38,817 bases of DNA. It comes from a virus. Under the pieces are notes generated by a model that saw only the letters and a list, made by a program, of their open reading frames with translations, made no database searches and had not been told where the DNA came from. The position numbers were made by a program, and so were the translations under genes. The stretch's first letter is position 1. Every line of letters begins with the position of its first letter. The DNA is taken from positions 1 to 38,817 of IMG/VR virus record IMGVR_UViG_3300033145_003114; one strand, given 5' to 3'. This document shows positions 5,092 through 31,742 of this stretch, one piece after another.

Positions 5092-5741
5092 TTTCTCCCT
5101 CTTTTTAACCAATCAAGTCTCGCCTGCCCGTCAATTCGGGTTGCGTACGGCCAAGGAGATTCAGGCATATTTTGAACTAAAGCAATTTTCCATTGTTTAT
5201 TTTTCATCCAAGAATAACCCATAACAGGAGTTTTCCAATCAGTTCCAAAATTCATTTCTATCCATTTTTCAGGAGGTTTTGGAACTAAAAATGTTTTTCC
5301 TAAAAATTCAAATTCTTGGGGTGGATCAAACATACCCCTTGGGAAAAGAGTCATAGCAGCTCCAGCATCTCGTCCTAGATAACAAGTAATTGCACATAAA
5401 AATTTTGGATCTTTAGATGGATAAAGAATCTTGAAACCAAAAGTTGATTTACCACTAATCGGAGAATGAGCAAAAGACCAATGAATCGATGTTCCATTTG
5501 GAATATTATAAGTTTCCCAGATATTGCATCCTTCTTTGGTAAAATGATTTATCATAGCGACAATATTTTCATAAGGAATCGAAGACAGGATAAAGAAGTC
5601 AAAATCACCATCCCAAGGAAGTAAACGATTTTCTCTTACTGCTCCCAATAAAATTCCTTGACACAGAATTAATGGTACTTCATATTTATCAGCAACTTCC
5701 TTGACATGAAGAAAATTATCAATTTTTTGTTTTTCATCCAT
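5085..5741 (-). CDS. LicD-family phosphotransferase-like protein
   Basis: A 218-residue protein whose first 55 residues match the LicD nucleotidyltransferase-fold core: a helix ending in DKYEVPLILCQG, then ILLGAVRENRLLPWDGDFDFFIL. The GxLLGAxRxxxxxPWDxDxD motif holds the metal-binding aspartates. LicD proteins move phosphocholine or related phospho-groups from CDP carriers onto glycans. The cluster also contains a LicC-like cytidylyltransferase (8788-10206), which supports a CDP-linked donor. The start has a strong GAGGAG. The sequence around it, AGGAGTTAATTTTTATGG, is almost identical to the initiation site inside the split ligase. The transferred group cannot be identified. Confidence 0.7.
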   Translation of the reverse strand: MDEKQKIDNFLHVKEVADKYEVPLILCQGILLGAVRENRLLPWDGDFDFFILSSIPYENIVAMINHFTKEGCNIWETYNIPNGTSIHWSFAHSPISGKSTFGFKILYPSKDPKFLCAITCYLGRDAGAAMTLFPRGMFDPPQEFEFLGKTFLVPKPPEKWIEMNFGTDWKTPVMGYSWMKNKQWKIALVQNMPESPWPYATRIDGQARLDWLKRGRKW

Positions 5742-5746
5742 AAAAA

Positions 5747-6556
5747 TTAACTCCTCAATTGTAATTTATTATCTTTCCAAAAATACGGTATTTGATCCAC
5801 TCGTTTCTTTTTCCCACCAGCTAATTGTCGATTGTTTTCAAATTCTTGAGCAAATTGCTTTGGATTCAAAAGTCCCCATTTATGGCGAGTATGAGTTTGA
5901 TGTAACATTCTGAAAGAAGAAATATCAACACTGGGAATTACTCGTTCAATGGCATCATAGATAATCCATCCATCCCAAAGTTGTCTTCCTAAAAGAAAAT
6001 CGGGCAAATACCCTTTAGGATAGAGGTTTTTTGTGAAAATATAACAATCGCAAGAACCAGGATGTCGAAGTCTTCCATGTTTATAAATTAATTCTTTAAG
6101 AGAATTTTTCCATTCTCCAGAAAAATTAACTTTACCTATAGACATTTCTTTACTTTCTTTAACTGTGCCATTCCATTCGGAAAACAGATCGTATCTTCTA
6201 GCTAATAGAAGAAATTGGTTAAATGTTATTTTTATTGTTTTGATCATATCAGTTAAATCTTCTAACAGAATAACATCAGAATGAAGATAACAGAGAATTT
6301 CTGAAGAAGCTATCTCTTGAGCTGTTTCAAATAAATGATTAAGATAAGGGGTGCCAAAATTATTTACTTTTGCGTCTTTAAAATGTTTCAGGTTCAATTC
6401 TTTGCAAATAGCTTCTGTACCAGATTCATTGCCAAATAAAATAATTTCAGCTTTTGGTTGCGTAAGCTTCCAACTAGTAATTGCATTTATTTGATTTGTT
6501 TTAAAAAGTCCATTTGGAATATCAGCAAAAACTCTGGGAAAAGAAAAAATGGTCAT
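5747..6556 (-). CDS. GT-A-like glycosyltransferase, single domain
   Basis: A 269-residue protein related to the two halves of 6560-8116 and to 12646-13428. The shared layout is an N-terminal TIFSFPRVF, then NAITSWKLTQPKAEIILFGNESGTE (about 24-48), FGTPYLNHLF, a CYLHSDVILL segment that looks like a GT-A DxD-type metal site (about 89-98), and a distal LLGRQLWDGWIIYDAI, also seen in relatives. The pattern suggests a soluble sugar-nucleotide-dependent transferase. There is no signal peptide or membrane segment. It lies in the middle of the glycan operon. The donor and acceptor are unknown. Confidence 0.65.
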   Translation of the reverse strand: MTIFSFPRVFADIPNGLFKTNQINAITSWKLTQPKAEIILFGNESGTEAICKELNLKHFKDAKVNNFGTPYLNHLFETAQEIASSEILCYLHSDVILLEDLTDMIKTIKITFNQFLLLARRYDLFSEWNGTVKESKEMSIGKVNFSGEWKNSLKELIYKHGRLRHPGSCDCYIFTKNLYPKGYLPDFLLGRQLWDGWIIYDAIERVIPSVDISSFRMLHQTHTRHKWGLLNPKQFAQEFENNRQLAGGKKKRVDQIPYFWKDNKLQLRS

Positions 6557-21004: not shown

Positions 21005-22936
21005 TTACTTTCTCGGTTCCCCCGGCAAAGCTGATTTACTAAACACCCAATTCTCGCTTCTAGGGGATTCACGTTTAGCTATCCAGTATCCTTTGAGTTT
21101 GCTGCCATGAAACATAAATGAAACAAAATCGCTGGTATCCGAAGCTATATTAACTGAACCTGAATCAACTTTATCAGCATAGGCCAAAATTTTTTTATTG
21201 GGATTTCCCCATTCAGGATGGTTGGGTGGAATAGATTTATTATAAAAATTTATCCATTCTTTATTAGGTTTTCCTTCTGGAGTTCCCGTACAATAATCCC
21301 GGCGTATACAATTTACACCTTCTGGTTTTTCCAAGGGATTATTCATCATTCCGGCAAATTCATCTAAGCATTTTTCACCTTTATCAAGAAGAAGATCCCA
21401 GTGATCGACAGACATACCCCTAACAACAAAAGCTCCACGCCAATGTAATCTACGCAATAAGAATTTAGCCTTCTTCAATTCTTTTATCTCTGATAATTTG
21501 ACTTTATGAATTCTAGCTTTAGCATAACCTTCAGATTTCCACTCAAAACCCTCACCTATAGTTCCAGTATCCATTGCCTTTTTGATGGTTATCCCATGAG
21601 TCTTTAAAATTTCCTTTACTTTCTTTTGCCAGTATTCTCTATCAAAGCCAATAGGCAAGAGCTTTTCAGCGATTTTCTCGATAATTTTTTCATCATTCCA
21701 CCCCTTAGCTTTTAATTCTCCATAAGTCATTAGAACAATAGCTGTATCGGTCTGGAGATCCCGAGATAATTTCAATTTTCTCGCCTTTATCTCATCCCTT
21801 TCGATCAAATCATTATAAGCCTGATCAATGAGCTTAATTTTTTCTGCTTTAGATTTGGAGTCAGGCCACCAACGGAATTCGGCTTTGATTTTCTTCTCCC
21901 ATTCTGGAGGAAGCCAGGATTCACCTTCCGGTGGAGCAACATCTTTTCGAGATCTTCCTCGAGGAGAGAGAAGATATGGGAGTTGGCCCTTGGTTGTATG
22001 GGCTCCGAGCCATGTTTGCCATTGCAATCTAGCTTTAGGCTTTTTTCTCCATTCTGGACGAACTGGGATAAGGCGGAAAATAAGCCGGCCTTTGAAATGT
22101 TTGCCATCTAAAAACCACTCGTTAAAATATGCTTTTTGAGTTCCCTGATACGACATTCCTTCATCTACAGCCCGGAAAACCCCCCATTCAAATCTGCTGG
22201 CCCCAACAGAGCCCGGGGGAAAAGCAACATCTCTAACATTAAGCCACTGAATTGGTTGATCTGATTTTTTGATTGCTACACATTTGACATTCCTGTCACC
22301 CATGTCCGGCTGGAATTTGAAAATCTTAGAATCATTCCAAGGATATTTTTTGAAATCGCTTAATGAATCAATCCTTTCTTTAATCGCTCCTTCTACTTGA
22401 TCGGTAATTGTGTAACCCTCCAAATGATCGTTTCTCTTGAACCTCAAATCTTTATGAATGCTCTTCCCTCTCGAATGATCCGTAAGTATAAACCATCCTT
22501 TCGGATAATCTTGCGGTCTTTTCTTTTTGGCTAAATCCTCTTCCCAGATTCCGCCCATACCCTTAGCTTCAAGAACTTCCTCCCAAGTAGGAGCCTCTAT
22601 TTTTTTTCTTTTGACTATAGGAATTTCAATTCCCATCTCCTGAGCAAATTCTTCTGCTAATCGAATTATCTCAAATTCAGCAATATCAGCCAATTCTCCT
22701 GAATCTCGATCCGCTTTATTATGCCGAATAACAAATTCTTGAAATTCTACATTATTAAAATCAGGATTTTTTTTAATAAATTCTAAAAAATAGCCACAAC
22801 CATAATCGCAATATTTTTCATAATCTATTGCTAGGAGAATTTCTTCTGGTTCCAGATCAAAATGCTCGGATATAAATTCCAGATATTCGTCTAGTGAAGA
22901 TAAATAATCGATTTCTGAAAATAATTGTTCATTCAT
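21005..22936 (-). CDS. Double LigD-type 3'-phosphoesterase-like protein
   Basis: About 643 residues. A first LigD_N-like (PE) domain spans roughly 140-290: WFILTDHSRGKSIHKDLRFK, with the His/HxDxR metal-site pattern, later PPGSVGASRFEWG and HFKGRLIFRLI. A second, at about 495-640, has FVVRGMSVDHWDLLLDKG and ends KLKGYWIAKRES with ENWVFSKSA; its HWDLLL lacks the usual arginine. PE domains remove 3'-phosphates and ribonucleotides to heal ends for ligation. The linker holds KAMDTGTIGEGFEW (about 453-466), very like the major capsid protein's KAMDSQTTGEGYEW. The ATG at 22936 has GAGGAAC upstream; an in-frame TTG lies 12 nt earlier. Both the enzymology and any virion role are inferred. Confidence 0.72.
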   Translation of the reverse strand: MNEQLFSEIDYLSSLDEYLEFISEHFDLEPEEILLAIDYEKYCDYGCGYFLEFIKKNPDFNNVEFQEFVIRHNKADRDSGELADIAEFEIIRLAEEFAQEMGIEIPIVKRKKIEAPTWEEVLEAKGMGGIWEEDLAKKKRPQDYPKGWFILTDHSRGKSIHKDLRFKRNDHLEGYTITDQVEGAIKERIDSLSDFKKYPWNDSKIFKFQPDMGDRNVKCVAIKKSDQPIQWLNVRDVAFPPGSVGASRFEWGVFRAVDEGMSYQGTQKAYFNEWFLDGKHFKGRLIFRLIPVRPEWRKKPKARLQWQTWLGAHTTKGQLPYLLSPRGRSRKDVAPPEGESWLPPEWEKKIKAEFRWWPDSKSKAEKIKLIDQAYNDLIERDEIKARKLKLSRDLQTDTAIVLMTYGELKAKGWNDEKIIEKIAEKLLPIGFDREYWQKKVKEILKTHGITIKKAMDTGTIGEGFEWKSEGYAKARIHKVKLSEIKELKKAKFLLRRLHWRGAFVVRGMSVDHWDLLLDKGEKCLDEFAGMMNNPLEKPEGVNCIRRDYCTGTPEGKPNKEWINFYNKSIPPNHPEWGNPNKKILAYADKVDSGSVNIASDTSDFVSFMFHGSKLKGYWIAKRESPRSENWVFSKSALPGEPRK

Positions 22937-22957
22937 TTTGTTCCTCAAGTTTAGATT

Positions 22958-27934: not shown

Positions 27935-30205
27935 CTAATATTGATGAATTGCTTCCATAATTTCCATTTGAGTTTTTTTGCCTGGAGTTCTGGCAGCAGA
28001 TTCTCGAGCAATGCGTTCCATATCATCTATAGTATCAGGGACTGTTCTAGTCGGGTCAATTTCCCTTAAATTGGGAAACATCCAAGCGAATAGTTCGCGT
28101 CCATCAGTCTTAAATTTTCTTACCAAAATTGGCCTTACAGTCACGATGTCCCCTATTTTTGGTCCCGGTTCTAATTTCTTGGCATAAGTATTTCCGTAAG
28201 CATATTCGCCAAGTTTACCAGGAGAAAAACCTCTGGCCATTTGCCAGATGCGAGGATCTTCGGTGCCTTGCCATTTTTTCTTGGAGGCATTCCATTTGAG
28301 GGAGAGATCTCCTAGTGTTAATTTGCGATCAGAATATATTGCTTCGAGTTTTCCAGTTTTGCCTCTATAAGCACATCTCAAAATGTAAGTTTTGGACTTT
28401 TGCTGAAGACGTTTAAAAGTAGAAATTGCTTCTTGGCCGGTGAGATCGGATTTAGGGACTTGACCTTTAGGGAAAGGGAACGGCTTACGATAGATGCCTA
28501 TCACCGAAGTTTTGAGTTCGAAGGCCAACTTCAGTTTTGAATTATGTACTACCACCGGGGTAGCAAAAGTTCCTCGCGAAGTTTCAAAATGATAGATTTT
28601 GCCCGAGTAGGGAATTTTCTTTATTGATTTAATTGGAAGAATAAAAAATTTCATTCCTTTCCTTTTATTACTTCCTTCTGTTAGATTAATCCAGCCAAAT
28701 TCATGAAGAAATACGGGACTGAATTTATTCCATTCCATCATTTTTGCATCTGTAGTCAGAAATTTAGAAATTCCTTGAATATCTAAAATATGCTCTTGAA
28801 TCTTTCTACTTCGGCCTAATTTGCTCGGATTAATCCTCATTGCTTTATTTTTACGATTTTGGATATACCAGCTTGGCAAAATTCCAAAACGACTAAAAAT
28901 TAAAACTAAACCCCAAGCTAATTCTCTCGAAACGGTTAGGCATTGCCCTGTAGTCATCGATCCATCTCCAGCCCAATAACCTTTAAGAAATGATTTTAAT
29001 TTACTCAGATTTGAGTTTAAGAGCCATGAAGGAAGCTTTTTAGTATAAGAATGACTTCCGAAATGATACTTCAAGAACTTGGTGAGTCTAGGATCTTTGA
29101 TCGTAAAGCGTTTCGGCTCGATGGAATAATTCAAATTAAGTCTTTCTATAAGTTTTTGAATTCTCCTATAATTTTCAGATTTATTCGATTGGGCAATCCG
29201 AATACGACTCGGATGATCGGAATAACCTTCAGAAACAAACCAACCACAAAGTTCAAAAAAATCATAGGAACGCGAACGATTCTGATCTTTATTAACAGGA
29301 AAGGGTTGTAAAGGCGGAAACAACAGATAATCCTCGATTCGAATATCTTCTGCCCGAACCCATTTCAAATTTTTTCTGAAATCTTTATCCAAAGATTTTA
29401 TTTTCGATGGTCGAACTCTTCTGGCAGTTTTTCTCAGCTTTTCCATTCGCCACCAATCCTCTCGATACGATTTTCGTTTTCGCCACAATCGTCCATTTTG
29501 AATTACAAGAACTCTGTGTTCTGGAGTCAAAGAAAATTCTGGCAAATTAGAGGGTTTAATCCGAACCAGATTGCCATTGAAATCGGAAGTTTCAATCGCT
29601 TTAATCGAAGCAAATTTTCCATTATGATCGTAAACTTTTCGACTAATTTTAGCTTTCTTAGCCTCGATAACTGAAGAATTACCATATAAATAACCATCAG
29701 CAGGTAAACACCATTCCCCGGTTCGTCCACTCAAATTGTATTTCCCCTCAACGGATTTACACATTACCCCCTCACTGCCGGCCGCTTTAGAAAGTCTCTC
29801 TACACATTTATCAAATTCTCTCCTATTAGTAACAATACAAGGTTCGACTCGTTTCAAATGTTTTAAATCTTTTGGTAAAACTTTTTTGAGATAAATCTGC
29901 CGTTCTTTCCATGGAAGATTAATCAAAGATTTTCCATTATAATAAACAATGTCGAACACATTGCATCGAATATCGATGTCTCTAAGGGGAGTTTTAGAAA
30001 TCACAATTTTAATCATTTCGTGTCTGGGGATAGGAGCGCCACTTTCCCAAATCACAGTTTCCCAATCTAAAATTACAGATTCACAGGGAAGTCCTTTTAT
30101 CTCCTTGACGATGTCTGGAAGATACGGAGCACGATCACGTTTTCTATCCTCAGTAAAAACCCAGACTTTATTCTTATCTCGATGACCACATAAACGAATG
30201 CCCAT
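27935..30205 (-). CDS. ATP-dependent DNA ligase, C-terminal part, with intein
   Basis: 756 residues before splicing. It begins MGIRLCGHRD, which is the second half of ligase motif I (KxDG-x-R); the lysine is in the upstream gene. Motif III is ILDWETVIW (about 45-53; usual LDGE is LDWE). Motif IIIa is NVFDIVYYNG. Motif IV is EGVMCKSVEGKY (about 145-156). Motif V is broken by an intein after GRTGEW (residue 165) and resumes as SKLKLAFELKTSVIG (from 556), then an OB-fold region with VRPILVRKF. Spliced, it would have about 366 residues. The ATG at 30205 follows AGGAGTTAAATTTT. It should act as a complex with the product of 30218-31441; activity is inferred. Confidence 0.78.
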   Translation of the reverse strand: MGIRLCGHRDKNKVWVFTEDRKRDRAPYLPDIVKEIKGLPCESVILDWETVIWESGAPIPRHEMIKIVISKTPLRDIDIRCNVFDIVYYNGKSLINLPWKERQIYLKKVLPKDLKHLKRVEPCIVTNRREFDKCVERLSKAAGSEGVMCKSVEGKYNLSGRTGEWCLPADGYLYGNSSVIEAKKAKISRKVYDHNGKFASIKAIETSDFNGNLVRIKPSNLPEFSLTPEHRVLVIQNGRLWRKRKSYREDWWRMEKLRKTARRVRPSKIKSLDKDFRKNLKWVRAEDIRIEDYLLFPPLQPFPVNKDQNRSRSYDFFELCGWFVSEGYSDHPSRIRIAQSNKSENYRRIQKLIERLNLNYSIEPKRFTIKDPRLTKFLKYHFGSHSYTKKLPSWLLNSNLSKLKSFLKGYWAGDGSMTTGQCLTVSRELAWGLVLIFSRFGILPSWYIQNRKNKAMRINPSKLGRSRKIQEHILDIQGISKFLTTDAKMMEWNKFSPVFLHEFGWINLTEGSNKRKGMKFFILPIKSIKKIPYSGKIYHFETSRGTFATPVVVHNSKLKLAFELKTSVIGIYRKPFPFPKGQVPKSDLTGQEAISTFKRLQQKSKTYILRCAYRGKTGKLEAIYSDRKLTLGDLSLKWNASKKKWQGTEDPRIWQMARGFSPGKLGEYAYGNTYAKKLEPGPKIGDIVTVRPILVRKFKTDGRELFAWMFPNLREIDPTRTVPDTIDDMERIARESAARTPGKKTQMEIMEAIHQY
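28541..29710 (-). mobile_element. Intein with LAGLIDADG homing endonuclease in ligase motif V
   Basis: Codons 166-555 of the ligase part (390 residues). The splice junctions are W|CLPADGYLYG and VVVHN|SKLK: Cys1, a penultimate His, terminal Asn and Ser+1 are all present. Block B is LTPEHRVLV (about 226-234, TxxH). The C-terminal blocks are KIYHFETSRGTF and TPVVVHN. Two LAGLIDADG-type motifs lie at about 318-327 (LCGWFVSEG) and 407-416 (LKGYWAGDGS), each with an acidic residue, so the endonuclease looks intact. Once spliced out, the ligase reads GRTGEWSKLK, a normal motif V. It is in frame and appears active. Confidence 0.9.
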
Positions 30206-30223
30206 AAAATTTAACTCCTAACA
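30203..30223 (-). other. 21-nt in-frame segment splitting ligase motif I
   Basis: Read as codons it is TGT TAG GAG TTA AAT TTT ATG, lying between GAT (D406 of the upstream protein) and GGC (G2 of the downstream one). It holds a stop, an AGGAG Shine-Dalgarno and a start, and its length is a multiple of three. Removing it restores EEKFDGIRL, a textbook KxDG motif. AGGAGTTAAATTTTATGG differs by one base from the start site of the LicD-like gene (AGGAGTTAATTTTTATGG). Confidence 0.85.
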
Positions 30224-31441
30224 ATCAAATTTTTCTTCGATAGCTATAGGTATCTTGGGATCTGTTAAAAGATATTTAGATACCCACATTTTCCACAATT
30301 TCTCTTTGTCAAAAAATTCGTAGGATCCATATCCTGTCCTAGCTTTTAGCGGCGTAAACGCCACTCCCGGTTTAATTTGTTGATCCTTCATTATTATCAA
30401 TTCCCGTTCCTCGGGTTTTAGGAATTCCACCTTTAACCTCGCCAATGGAACATATGATGTGAATTTGCCTTCGGGATCTGGCACCATATGCACATCATCA
30501 CCCAAAGCTCTTGGTTTTTTTTCTTGGGATTCGAGAAATTTGGAGAATTCTCCTTCAGCATCTCTTCGGAAACGTATTCGATTGTTTAAATTTTCATTAA
30601 GAAAAGATCTTAATCGAAATTCGAGATCTCCTAGAAATCGTTCTATTGCATTCTCTCCCGTCGGGAAGTTAATCCATACGTCCAAGTCCTCCCCCCTGCC
30701 CGAAACAGCAACGCTGCCAACGGCTGCTAGGAATAAATCTTTTAAATAGAAGCCTGGGCCATAAATCTGAGCCAAATCATCGATGTATACATATGGTTCC
30801 CTTACTCGAATTCCCATATTTTCGATGGTAATTTCATCTAGCTCATTCTGGATTCTATGTTCCATTCCTCTTCGTCTCATTTCTTGAACTATGAGAAGAT
30901 GAGCATTGATTGCCAATTCATCCGAAGCTCTAGCTCCTCTTTCTTCCCAAAATTTATGTACTTGAGCATGGAGGGAAACCAGTGCTTTGTTACTCAATTC
31001 TTTCAATTCTTCAGCAGCTATTCGAGGGTCAAATTTTTCTTTTTTAAAAATTACTTCTCGGATGGAAGTCTGAGTTTCTTGCTTTTTAATCTTGCGCGGC
31101 TGGGTAAAAGGGAAAAAATCACGAATTTCGTAAGCGATAAGACTTTGACTTTCTGGCCATAGTTTTTCCCGTTCTAATTCATCTATTCTATGTTTTGATT
31201 CAAGAGCTTTAAATTCCTTTAAATTAATCTCTTTAGGCTCTTTGCATCTGATAAAACCAAAAGCTCCTCTATCATAGTCACAAAGGATTTTAAATTGAGA
31301 TAAATCTAATTTTTTATTTTTGACAATTAGCGTCTTTTCTCTCTTCCAAATCATTTCAGCATGAGGCGAAACCAGAGGAAGCCCACTCTTAACCAATCTT
31401 TCCAAGAGAATCATAAATAATTGATAACTAGTTTTCTTCAT
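30218..31441 (-). CDS. ASCH-like/nucleotidyltransferase protein carrying the N-terminal half of DNA ligase
   Basis: 407 residues with four parts. Residues 20-112 resemble an ASCH/PUA-like domain (EMIWKREKTLIV, GFIRCKEPKEINLKEF, AYEIRDFFPF). Residues 140-200 are helical (LVSLHAQVHKFWEE, NAHLLIVQEMRRRGMEH). Residues 230-340 include a Pol-beta-type nucleotidyltransferase motif, AAVGSVAVSGRGEDLDVWI (about 240-258, GS..GRGxDxD). The C-terminus, from about 358, is the start of an ATP-dependent ligase (GVAFTPLKARTGYGS) and ends EEKFDC, with the adenylation lysine at 404 and the protein ending one residue later than KxD. The next residue of the motif begins the downstream gene. The NTase substrate is unknown. 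Confidence 0.7.
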   Translation of the reverse strand: MKKTSYQLFMILLERLVKSGLPLVSPHAEMIWKREKTLIVKNKKLDLSQFKILCDYDRGAFGFIRCKEPKEINLKEFKALESKHRIDELEREKLWPESQSLIAYEIRDFFPFTQPRKIKKQETQTSIREVIFKKEKFDPRIAAEELKELSNKALVSLHAQVHKFWEERGARASDELAINAHLLIVQEMRRRGMEHRIQNELDEITIENMGIRVREPYVYIDDLAQIYGPGFYLKDLFLAAVGSVAVSGRGEDLDVWINFPTGENAIERFLGDLEFRLRSFLNENLNNRIRFRRDAEGEFSKFLESQEKKPRALGDDVHMVPDPEGKFTSYVPLARLKVEFLKPEERELIIMKDQQIKPGVAFTPLKARTGYGSYEFFDKEKLWKMWVSKYLLTDPKIPIAIEEKFDC

Positions 31442-31505: not shown

Positions 31506-31742
31506 TCATTGTCCTAAAAGAAAAATAGTTCGAACGAGTAAAGCAGTAAAAGCTGAAGAAAGGATCCAGATAATTGTAGAAACAGCCCAAGATGGCCGCC
31601 TTCCCCACAGTTCTACTTTTTTGACTAGACCTTTGAAGTCATTATTTTTAAATTCATTAAACATTTTAATAAAATTATCTACTCGTTCTCGAGTAATTTG
31701 TTCAAATGCACTTCCTTTCAAATTATCAGGATTCTTTTCCAT
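31506..31742 (-). CDS. Small membrane protein, holin-like candidate
   Basis: A 78-residue protein with an amphipathic, charged N-terminus (residues 1-48) and one hydrophobic segment near the C-terminus, WAVSTIIWILSSAFTALLVRTIFLL (about 52-76), long enough for one or two turns beyond a single membrane span. This layout resembles XhlA-type phage membrane proteins and small holin-like proteins. No endolysin is visible beside it, so a lysis role is only a suggestion. It lies between the methylase and ligase genes. It could instead anchor another protein. Confidence 0.5.
   Translation of the reverse strand: MEKNPDNLKGSAFEQITRERVDNFIKMFNEFKNNDFKGLVKKVELWGRRPSWAVSTIIWILSSAFTALLVRTIFLLGQ

Follow-up and report, generated by a model that had tools for sequence, protein, structure and literature searches.

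The locus described here raises the question whether a virus can use an ATP-dependent DNA ligase whose motif I is divided between two separately translated chains. On the minus strand of the window, i.e. the whole 38.8-kb stretch of viral DNA that was analysed, motif I of such a ligase is broken as EEKFD/GIRL by a 21-nt junction, TGT TAG GAG TTA AAT TTT ATG, which separates the GAT codon of the aspartate from the GGC codon of the glycine (Table 1). The ORFs upstream and downstream share one frame, and the in silico deletion of the junction restores EEKFDGIRL. As they stand, the residues of KxDGxR are not found on one continuous chain, they are divided into KFDC followed by a stop and MGIR. An earlier note on this DNA had described a split within KxDG by a stop-SD-start segment of 21 nt, and this description proved to be exact when compared with the minus-strand ORFs and the junction sequence.

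Table 1. Features of the split ligase locus and its neighbourhood (positions refer to the window).
Feature	Position	Strand	Basis
Ligase-splitting junction: Cys codon TGT, stop codon TAG, Shine-Dalgarno core (GGAG) that overlaps this stop, and a spacer leading to the ATG start	30203-30223	-	read from sequence
K404 codon, motif I lysine, expected AMP carrier	30230-30232	-	sequence and alignment
Upstream ORF, 407 aa, ending ...PKIPIAIEEKFDC (EEKFDC) and stop	30218-31441	-	translation
Parts of the upstream ORF: a region that by eye resembles nucleotidyltransferases (GSVAVSGRGEDLDVWI), the N-terminal segment of the ligase (AFTPLKARTGYGSYEFFD), the motif I strand	30218-31441	-	
Downstream ORF, 756 aa, beginning MGIRLCGHRD	27935-30205	-	translation
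Motifs of the downstream ORF: III (ILDWETVIW), IIIa (NVFDIVYYNG), IV (EGVMCK), V, C-terminal OB part	27935-30205	-	alignments
LAGLIDADG intein, about 390 aa (CLPADGYLY...VVVHN/S), at ligase motif V	28541-29710	-	sequence
Neighbouring conserved protein, 647 aa, LigD-type phosphoesterase-like by eye (a lead only)	21005-22948	-	homologue in L002, 9399-10919

The half behind the junction alone matches the Pfam profile DNA_ligase_A_M (PF01068) above the cut-off (E 5.6e-20), which identifies it as the adenylation domain of an ATP-dependent DNA ligase, and all four motifs III, IIIa, IV and V are kept (V as W-SKLKL in the alignments). Motif V is interrupted by an intein inserted between GRTGEW and SKLKL, which was missing from the earlier note; without it, the ligase part of the downstream ORF comprises 366 aa. 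Profile searches detected no second ligase domain in the 38.8-kb record, and none in addition to the split ligase in the records of the other viruses with this gene arrangement. The neighbouring 647-aa protein gave no Pfam match.

Scans of viral contigs yielded about 80 loci with related ligases. In nearly all of them motif I is unbroken and lies inside a single long ORF, which is often fused to metallo-beta-lactamase, methyltransferase, phosphoesterase-like or protease-like parts. A search of metagenomic relatives for the same junction had been suggested before, and the split was indeed found at the same place in three other IMG/VR contigs, L013 (3300037673_000031), L002 (3300033150_002982) and L089 (3300029891_000071), resulting in four contigs in total, all from uncultivated viruses. 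L013 reads AAG TAC GAT TGC TGA GGT GCT TCC ATG GGC GTT AGA, i.e. KYDC and stop, then MGVR (pattern KYDC-TGA-GGTGCTTCC-ATG-GGC). L002 and L089 are cut further, since motif I stands alone on a minigene of 14-16 codons, the stop of which overlaps the next start (ATGGTTGA). In L002, the upstream ORF ends with ...NKWMIKYMKDC and stop, followed by two small ORFs and the minigene MPRIPVAIEPKFDG, whose terminal GAT GGT TGA contains the ATG of MVEFSIRLTGHRD. Correspondingly, the upstream ORF of L089 ends with ...LIENWVLKNDR and stop, followed by small ORFs and the minigene MSNLESTIAVETKFDG, which overlaps the ATGGTTGA start of the downstream ORF MVDFRIVIHRKG. The downstream chains of these two viruses begin with MVEFSIRL (L002) and MVDFRIVI (L089), without the motif glycine at the start. 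When further minigenes were sought by their pattern (GATGCC...AATTCGATGGTTGA), the matches other than L002 and L089 were all unrelated and due to chance, an exact 26-nt search of the viral contigs with the window junction gave zero matches, and a final scan with the upstream piece added one contig, L106, with an intact ligase. Isolate phages and plasmids contained only distant ligases; the first scan of genome contigs found none and the second a single distant match (L080).

Some general features of these loci should be mentioned as well. These viral ligases often contain inteins, for example at motif V of the window ligase and at the same site in L007. The ligase region is located between portal and protease/capsid genes (L004 6402-10586; L002 3491-7417; ligase ORFs of L011 and L017). 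It is often part of giant fused ORFs of up to 2845 aa, of which the one in L004 apparently ends maturation-protease-like; such ORFs possibly represent a polyprotein that is packaged with the head. Small ORFs occur between or beside the ligase pieces (L002 7437-7904, L089 6289-6872, window 31506-31742) at positions that vary among the relatives, and several of them have a membrane segment predicted by eye.

The junctions look like translation starts. In the window and L013, Shine-Dalgarno (SD) sites overlapping the upstream stop precede the downstream start, with -6.8 and -6.9 kcal/mol, respectively, compared to a median of -6.4 for the genes of the window. The minigenes of L002 and L089 have strong SDs of their own (-8.4 and -11.5), whereas those of the downstream ATGs are weak or absent (0.1 and -3.3) and a hairpin encloses or flanks the ATG, an arrangement that fits translational coupling. 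The earlier note had also suggested that a start cassette was gained or duplicated, because a near-copy of the junction start site exists elsewhere in the window. This second site at 5739-5757 on the minus strand (TGAGGAGTTAATTTTTATG) differs by 2 mismatches in 19 positions, and only 0.09 such near-copies are expected by chance in shuffled sequences. However, it is the normal SD, AT-rich spacer and ATG of another gene, and its likeness to the junction can be functional. Moreover, the insert of L013 has 18 nt and a different sequence, and the cassette is absent as such at the L002 and L089 junctions. The duplication was not borne out, and a mobile start cassette was likewise rejected, given that these three relatives each carry a different junction.

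Both halves of the ligase are under purifying selection. When the window is compared with L002, the halves have pN/pS values of 0.36 and 0.34, as opposed to the higher values of 0.48 for the portal and 0.51 for the capsid protein, with synonymous sites near or at saturation. Over the 12 codons of motif I (window versus L002 minigene) it is as low as 0.15, a value from a small sample. Among the 80 loci scanned, in-frame stops inside the adenylation domain were found in L013 only; the stop of L009 is situated at the far end of the match, and the frameshift of L028 is elsewhere. In L028, around 5806-6000, the frame is lost approximately 25-40 codons past motif I and a restart was not seen, which is probably due to a sequencing error or decay. 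The split ligases themselves display neither relaxed selection nor further lesions. Relatives with decayed halves, which had been named beforehand as a refutation, were searched for and none were found. The conserved halves and the lack of other stops argue against decay as well as against an assembly error. Furthermore, intact single-chain homologues exist in relatives while both pieces are conserved, as is the case for genes in pieces.

Trees were computed from the joined ligase parts. They place L089 next to the intact ligase of L015 (support 100/100) and the window next to L002 (99-100). Forcing all four split ligases into a single clade lowers the log-likelihood by 45-48 and is disfavoured (AU p 0.028 and 0.045); window, L002 and L013 as one clade are not rejected (p 0.34, 0.52). 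Given this position of L089 beside an intact ligase, there were probably two or more independent fissions at the same place, unless recombination moved the junction. In this regard, the minigene leaders of L002 and L089 are somewhat alike (GGAGnTGATGCC; p 0.002 by shuffling), but in the 27 nt of motif I L002 and L089 are no closer than window and L002 (19/27 each). A recent transfer of the minigene from one of these two viruses to the other is suggested by the leaders, whereas motif I gives no support for it. Possibly, a small indel just after motif I is sufficient to create a stop together with a ready-made overlapping start as in L002 and L089, because GAT GGN holds an ATG in another frame.

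AlphaFold2 models were built with the stop read as a residue, i.e. with bridged halves, and therefore fall short of proof. In the L013 model (mean pLDDT 85.6), the break lies in the turn that connects two successive strands, the first (residues 61-65) ending at the lysine of motif I and the second comprising residues 76-83, and the insert (69-73) is the sole internal stretch with a pLDDT below 50. Residues 19-439 of this model align with archaeal and human ligases across both halves (Z 24.9 for 2cfm), which includes the nucleotidyltransferase and OB folds. The read-through model of the window has the same arrangement, it is weaker (64.6) because of the intein, and in Foldseek it retrieves ligases covering the same domains. 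The two strands of a hairpin can still pair when the turn between them is cut, which makes non-covalent assembly of the halves plausible as judged from the models.

Hence, we regard it as fairly probable that these viruses make an ATP-dependent DNA ligase as separately translated chains, which would assemble non-covalently into a composite active site. The upstream chain would supply the N-terminal segment of the ligase together with the lysine-bearing strand of motif I, while the downstream chain, which would start at the motif glycine, would bring the remaining nucleotide pocket and the OB part. Its translation may be initiated by its own SD overlapping the upstream stop in the window and L013, and by coupling to the motif I minigene in L002 and L089. 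Removal of the methionine, which is expected before glycine, would make the motif glycine the N-terminus of the downstream chain in the window and L013. The chains would then join across the turn of two neighbouring strands without a covalent bond. Translation, methionine removal, assembly and ligase activity of the split chains are all inferred. The two-subunit ligase of the earlier note is in so far upheld as the split is exact, shared with relatives and subject to purifying selection, which makes several chains the best supported reading. The more far-reaching proposal of an obligate multi-chain ligase, with the lysine motif provided in trans (as a peptide of 14-16 residues in L002 and L089) and with independent origins of the same break in two or more virus lineages, is put forward tentatively, as a serious possibility that is slightly less likely than not. 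What speaks against a multi-chain ligase is that no loop of the active site is more conserved than the one affected by the break, that the downstream chains of L002 and L089 do not start with the motif glycine, and that non-covalent assembly with such a short lysine peptide is demanding; moreover, the split is seen in four contigs only.

Motif I, the site of adenylation, is broken in every split member, and L002 and L089 encode it solely on a short peptide, which may act as a coupling leader. It could thus be assumed that ligation was lost in the downstream half, that the halves were kept for separate roles, for example to bind DNA or AMP or, next to the capsid genes, to serve in the virion, and that motif I became a mere tail or leader of another gene. 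We consider this rather unlikely, since the amino acids of the motif I peptide are conserved despite saturated synonymous sites, the other motifs of the nucleotide pocket are kept and a mere leader does not need KFDG. An error of assembly or a recent pseudogene in the window is almost certainly not the explanation: its junction is known from an assembled contig alone, but the same split in contigs from other metagenomes, the proper SD sites and the conserved halves largely refute it.

A full-length ligase could also result from programmed recoding, by read-through of the stop in the window and L013, where the halves are in one frame, or by a +1 frameshift in L002 and L089, whose halves overlap and whose stop codon is TGA. 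The regulated read-through of TAG proposed in the earlier note was not supported, and recoding in general appears very unlikely. In the window, TAG serves as a normal stop codon that terminates 9 of the 41 genes, and no tRNA gene is present; the relatives use TGA, and L002 and L089 are out of frame. A conserved stop or shift site that would give an intact motif was not detected, as stops, frames and insert lengths differ among the four. Read-through would insert 6-7 residues within KxDG (CXELNFM or CXGASM) and a frameshift would yield KFDG plus 1-3 extra residues, none of these products having KxDGxR. Moreover, the in-frame junctions of the window and L013 resemble ordinary SD gene starts without special folding; for the same reasons, an archaeal BHB-type mini-intron was rejected for the window. 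Another suggestion, which is compatible with a multi-chain ligase, refers to the origin of the break, which could have been left by a lost intein or other mobile insertion at motif I. Inteins sit inside motif I of L068 (KWDGM/C...HN/SFQIH) and just before it in L093 (...HN/CQKKYDG), the Cys after KFD or KYD is the residue an intein would start with, and small genes lie between the ligase pieces of L002 and L089. This origin is nevertheless improbable. With Gly as the +1 residue, an intein at D/G would be at odds with standard intein chemistry. The break is flanked by a single Cys upstream instead of intein fragments, the intein of the window being at motif V, the 21-nt junction holds no homing endonuclease, and the small ORFs inserted in L002 and L089 lack endonuclease matches in Pfam and PHROG.

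A multi-chain ligase would not be the first phage enzyme in pieces. The NrdA of Aeh1, split by mobE, and gp43A/43B of phages 44RR and 25 belong to this group, as does the T4 topoisomerase gp60/gp39 (PMC2988022). Aeh1 NrdA and gp43 of phage 25 are active though split, the gp43 halves co-purify with activity, and in 44RR gp43 is split by a short intercistronic sequence (PMC2988022). The virus ligase, as predicted from sequence, resembles them as a phage replication enzyme made of separately translated chains that need reassembly, but it is another enzyme, it is cut within a covalent catalytic motif and it includes minigene forms. A homing endonuclease is present at the break of Aeh1 nrdA, it is not needed for 44RR gp43 and none was seen here. 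Fractured genes with split inteins are similar in that the break lies inside a conserved active-site motif and the upstream half ends in Cys; however, the downstream half here starts with Met-Gly and N- and C-intein fragments are absent. The joined halves share motifs and fold with ATP-dependent DNA ligases (PF01068; Pyrococcus, Thermococcus, human Lig1), but solved enzymes of this type consist of one polypeptide with an intact motif I. The ligase of the archaeal virus ANMV-1 (KP703175), a distant viral relative with 24-28% identity, is annotated as one gene. Searches of an open-access literature library brought up no ligase with a split in motif I. Hence, split phage enzymes are known, and the cut in motif I of a ligase, its recurrence and the lysine minigenes are the new aspects.

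Motif I is about the last site at which an enzyme with covalent catalysis is expected to tolerate a break, and annotation pipelines would label the half with the lysine as a hypothetical protein. If the multi-chain reading is true, these viruses would possess a naturally split ligase that could be applied in switchable or proximity ligation and that tests whether an active-site strand can come as a peptide, and they would be well suited to explain how viral enzymes come to be encoded in pieces.
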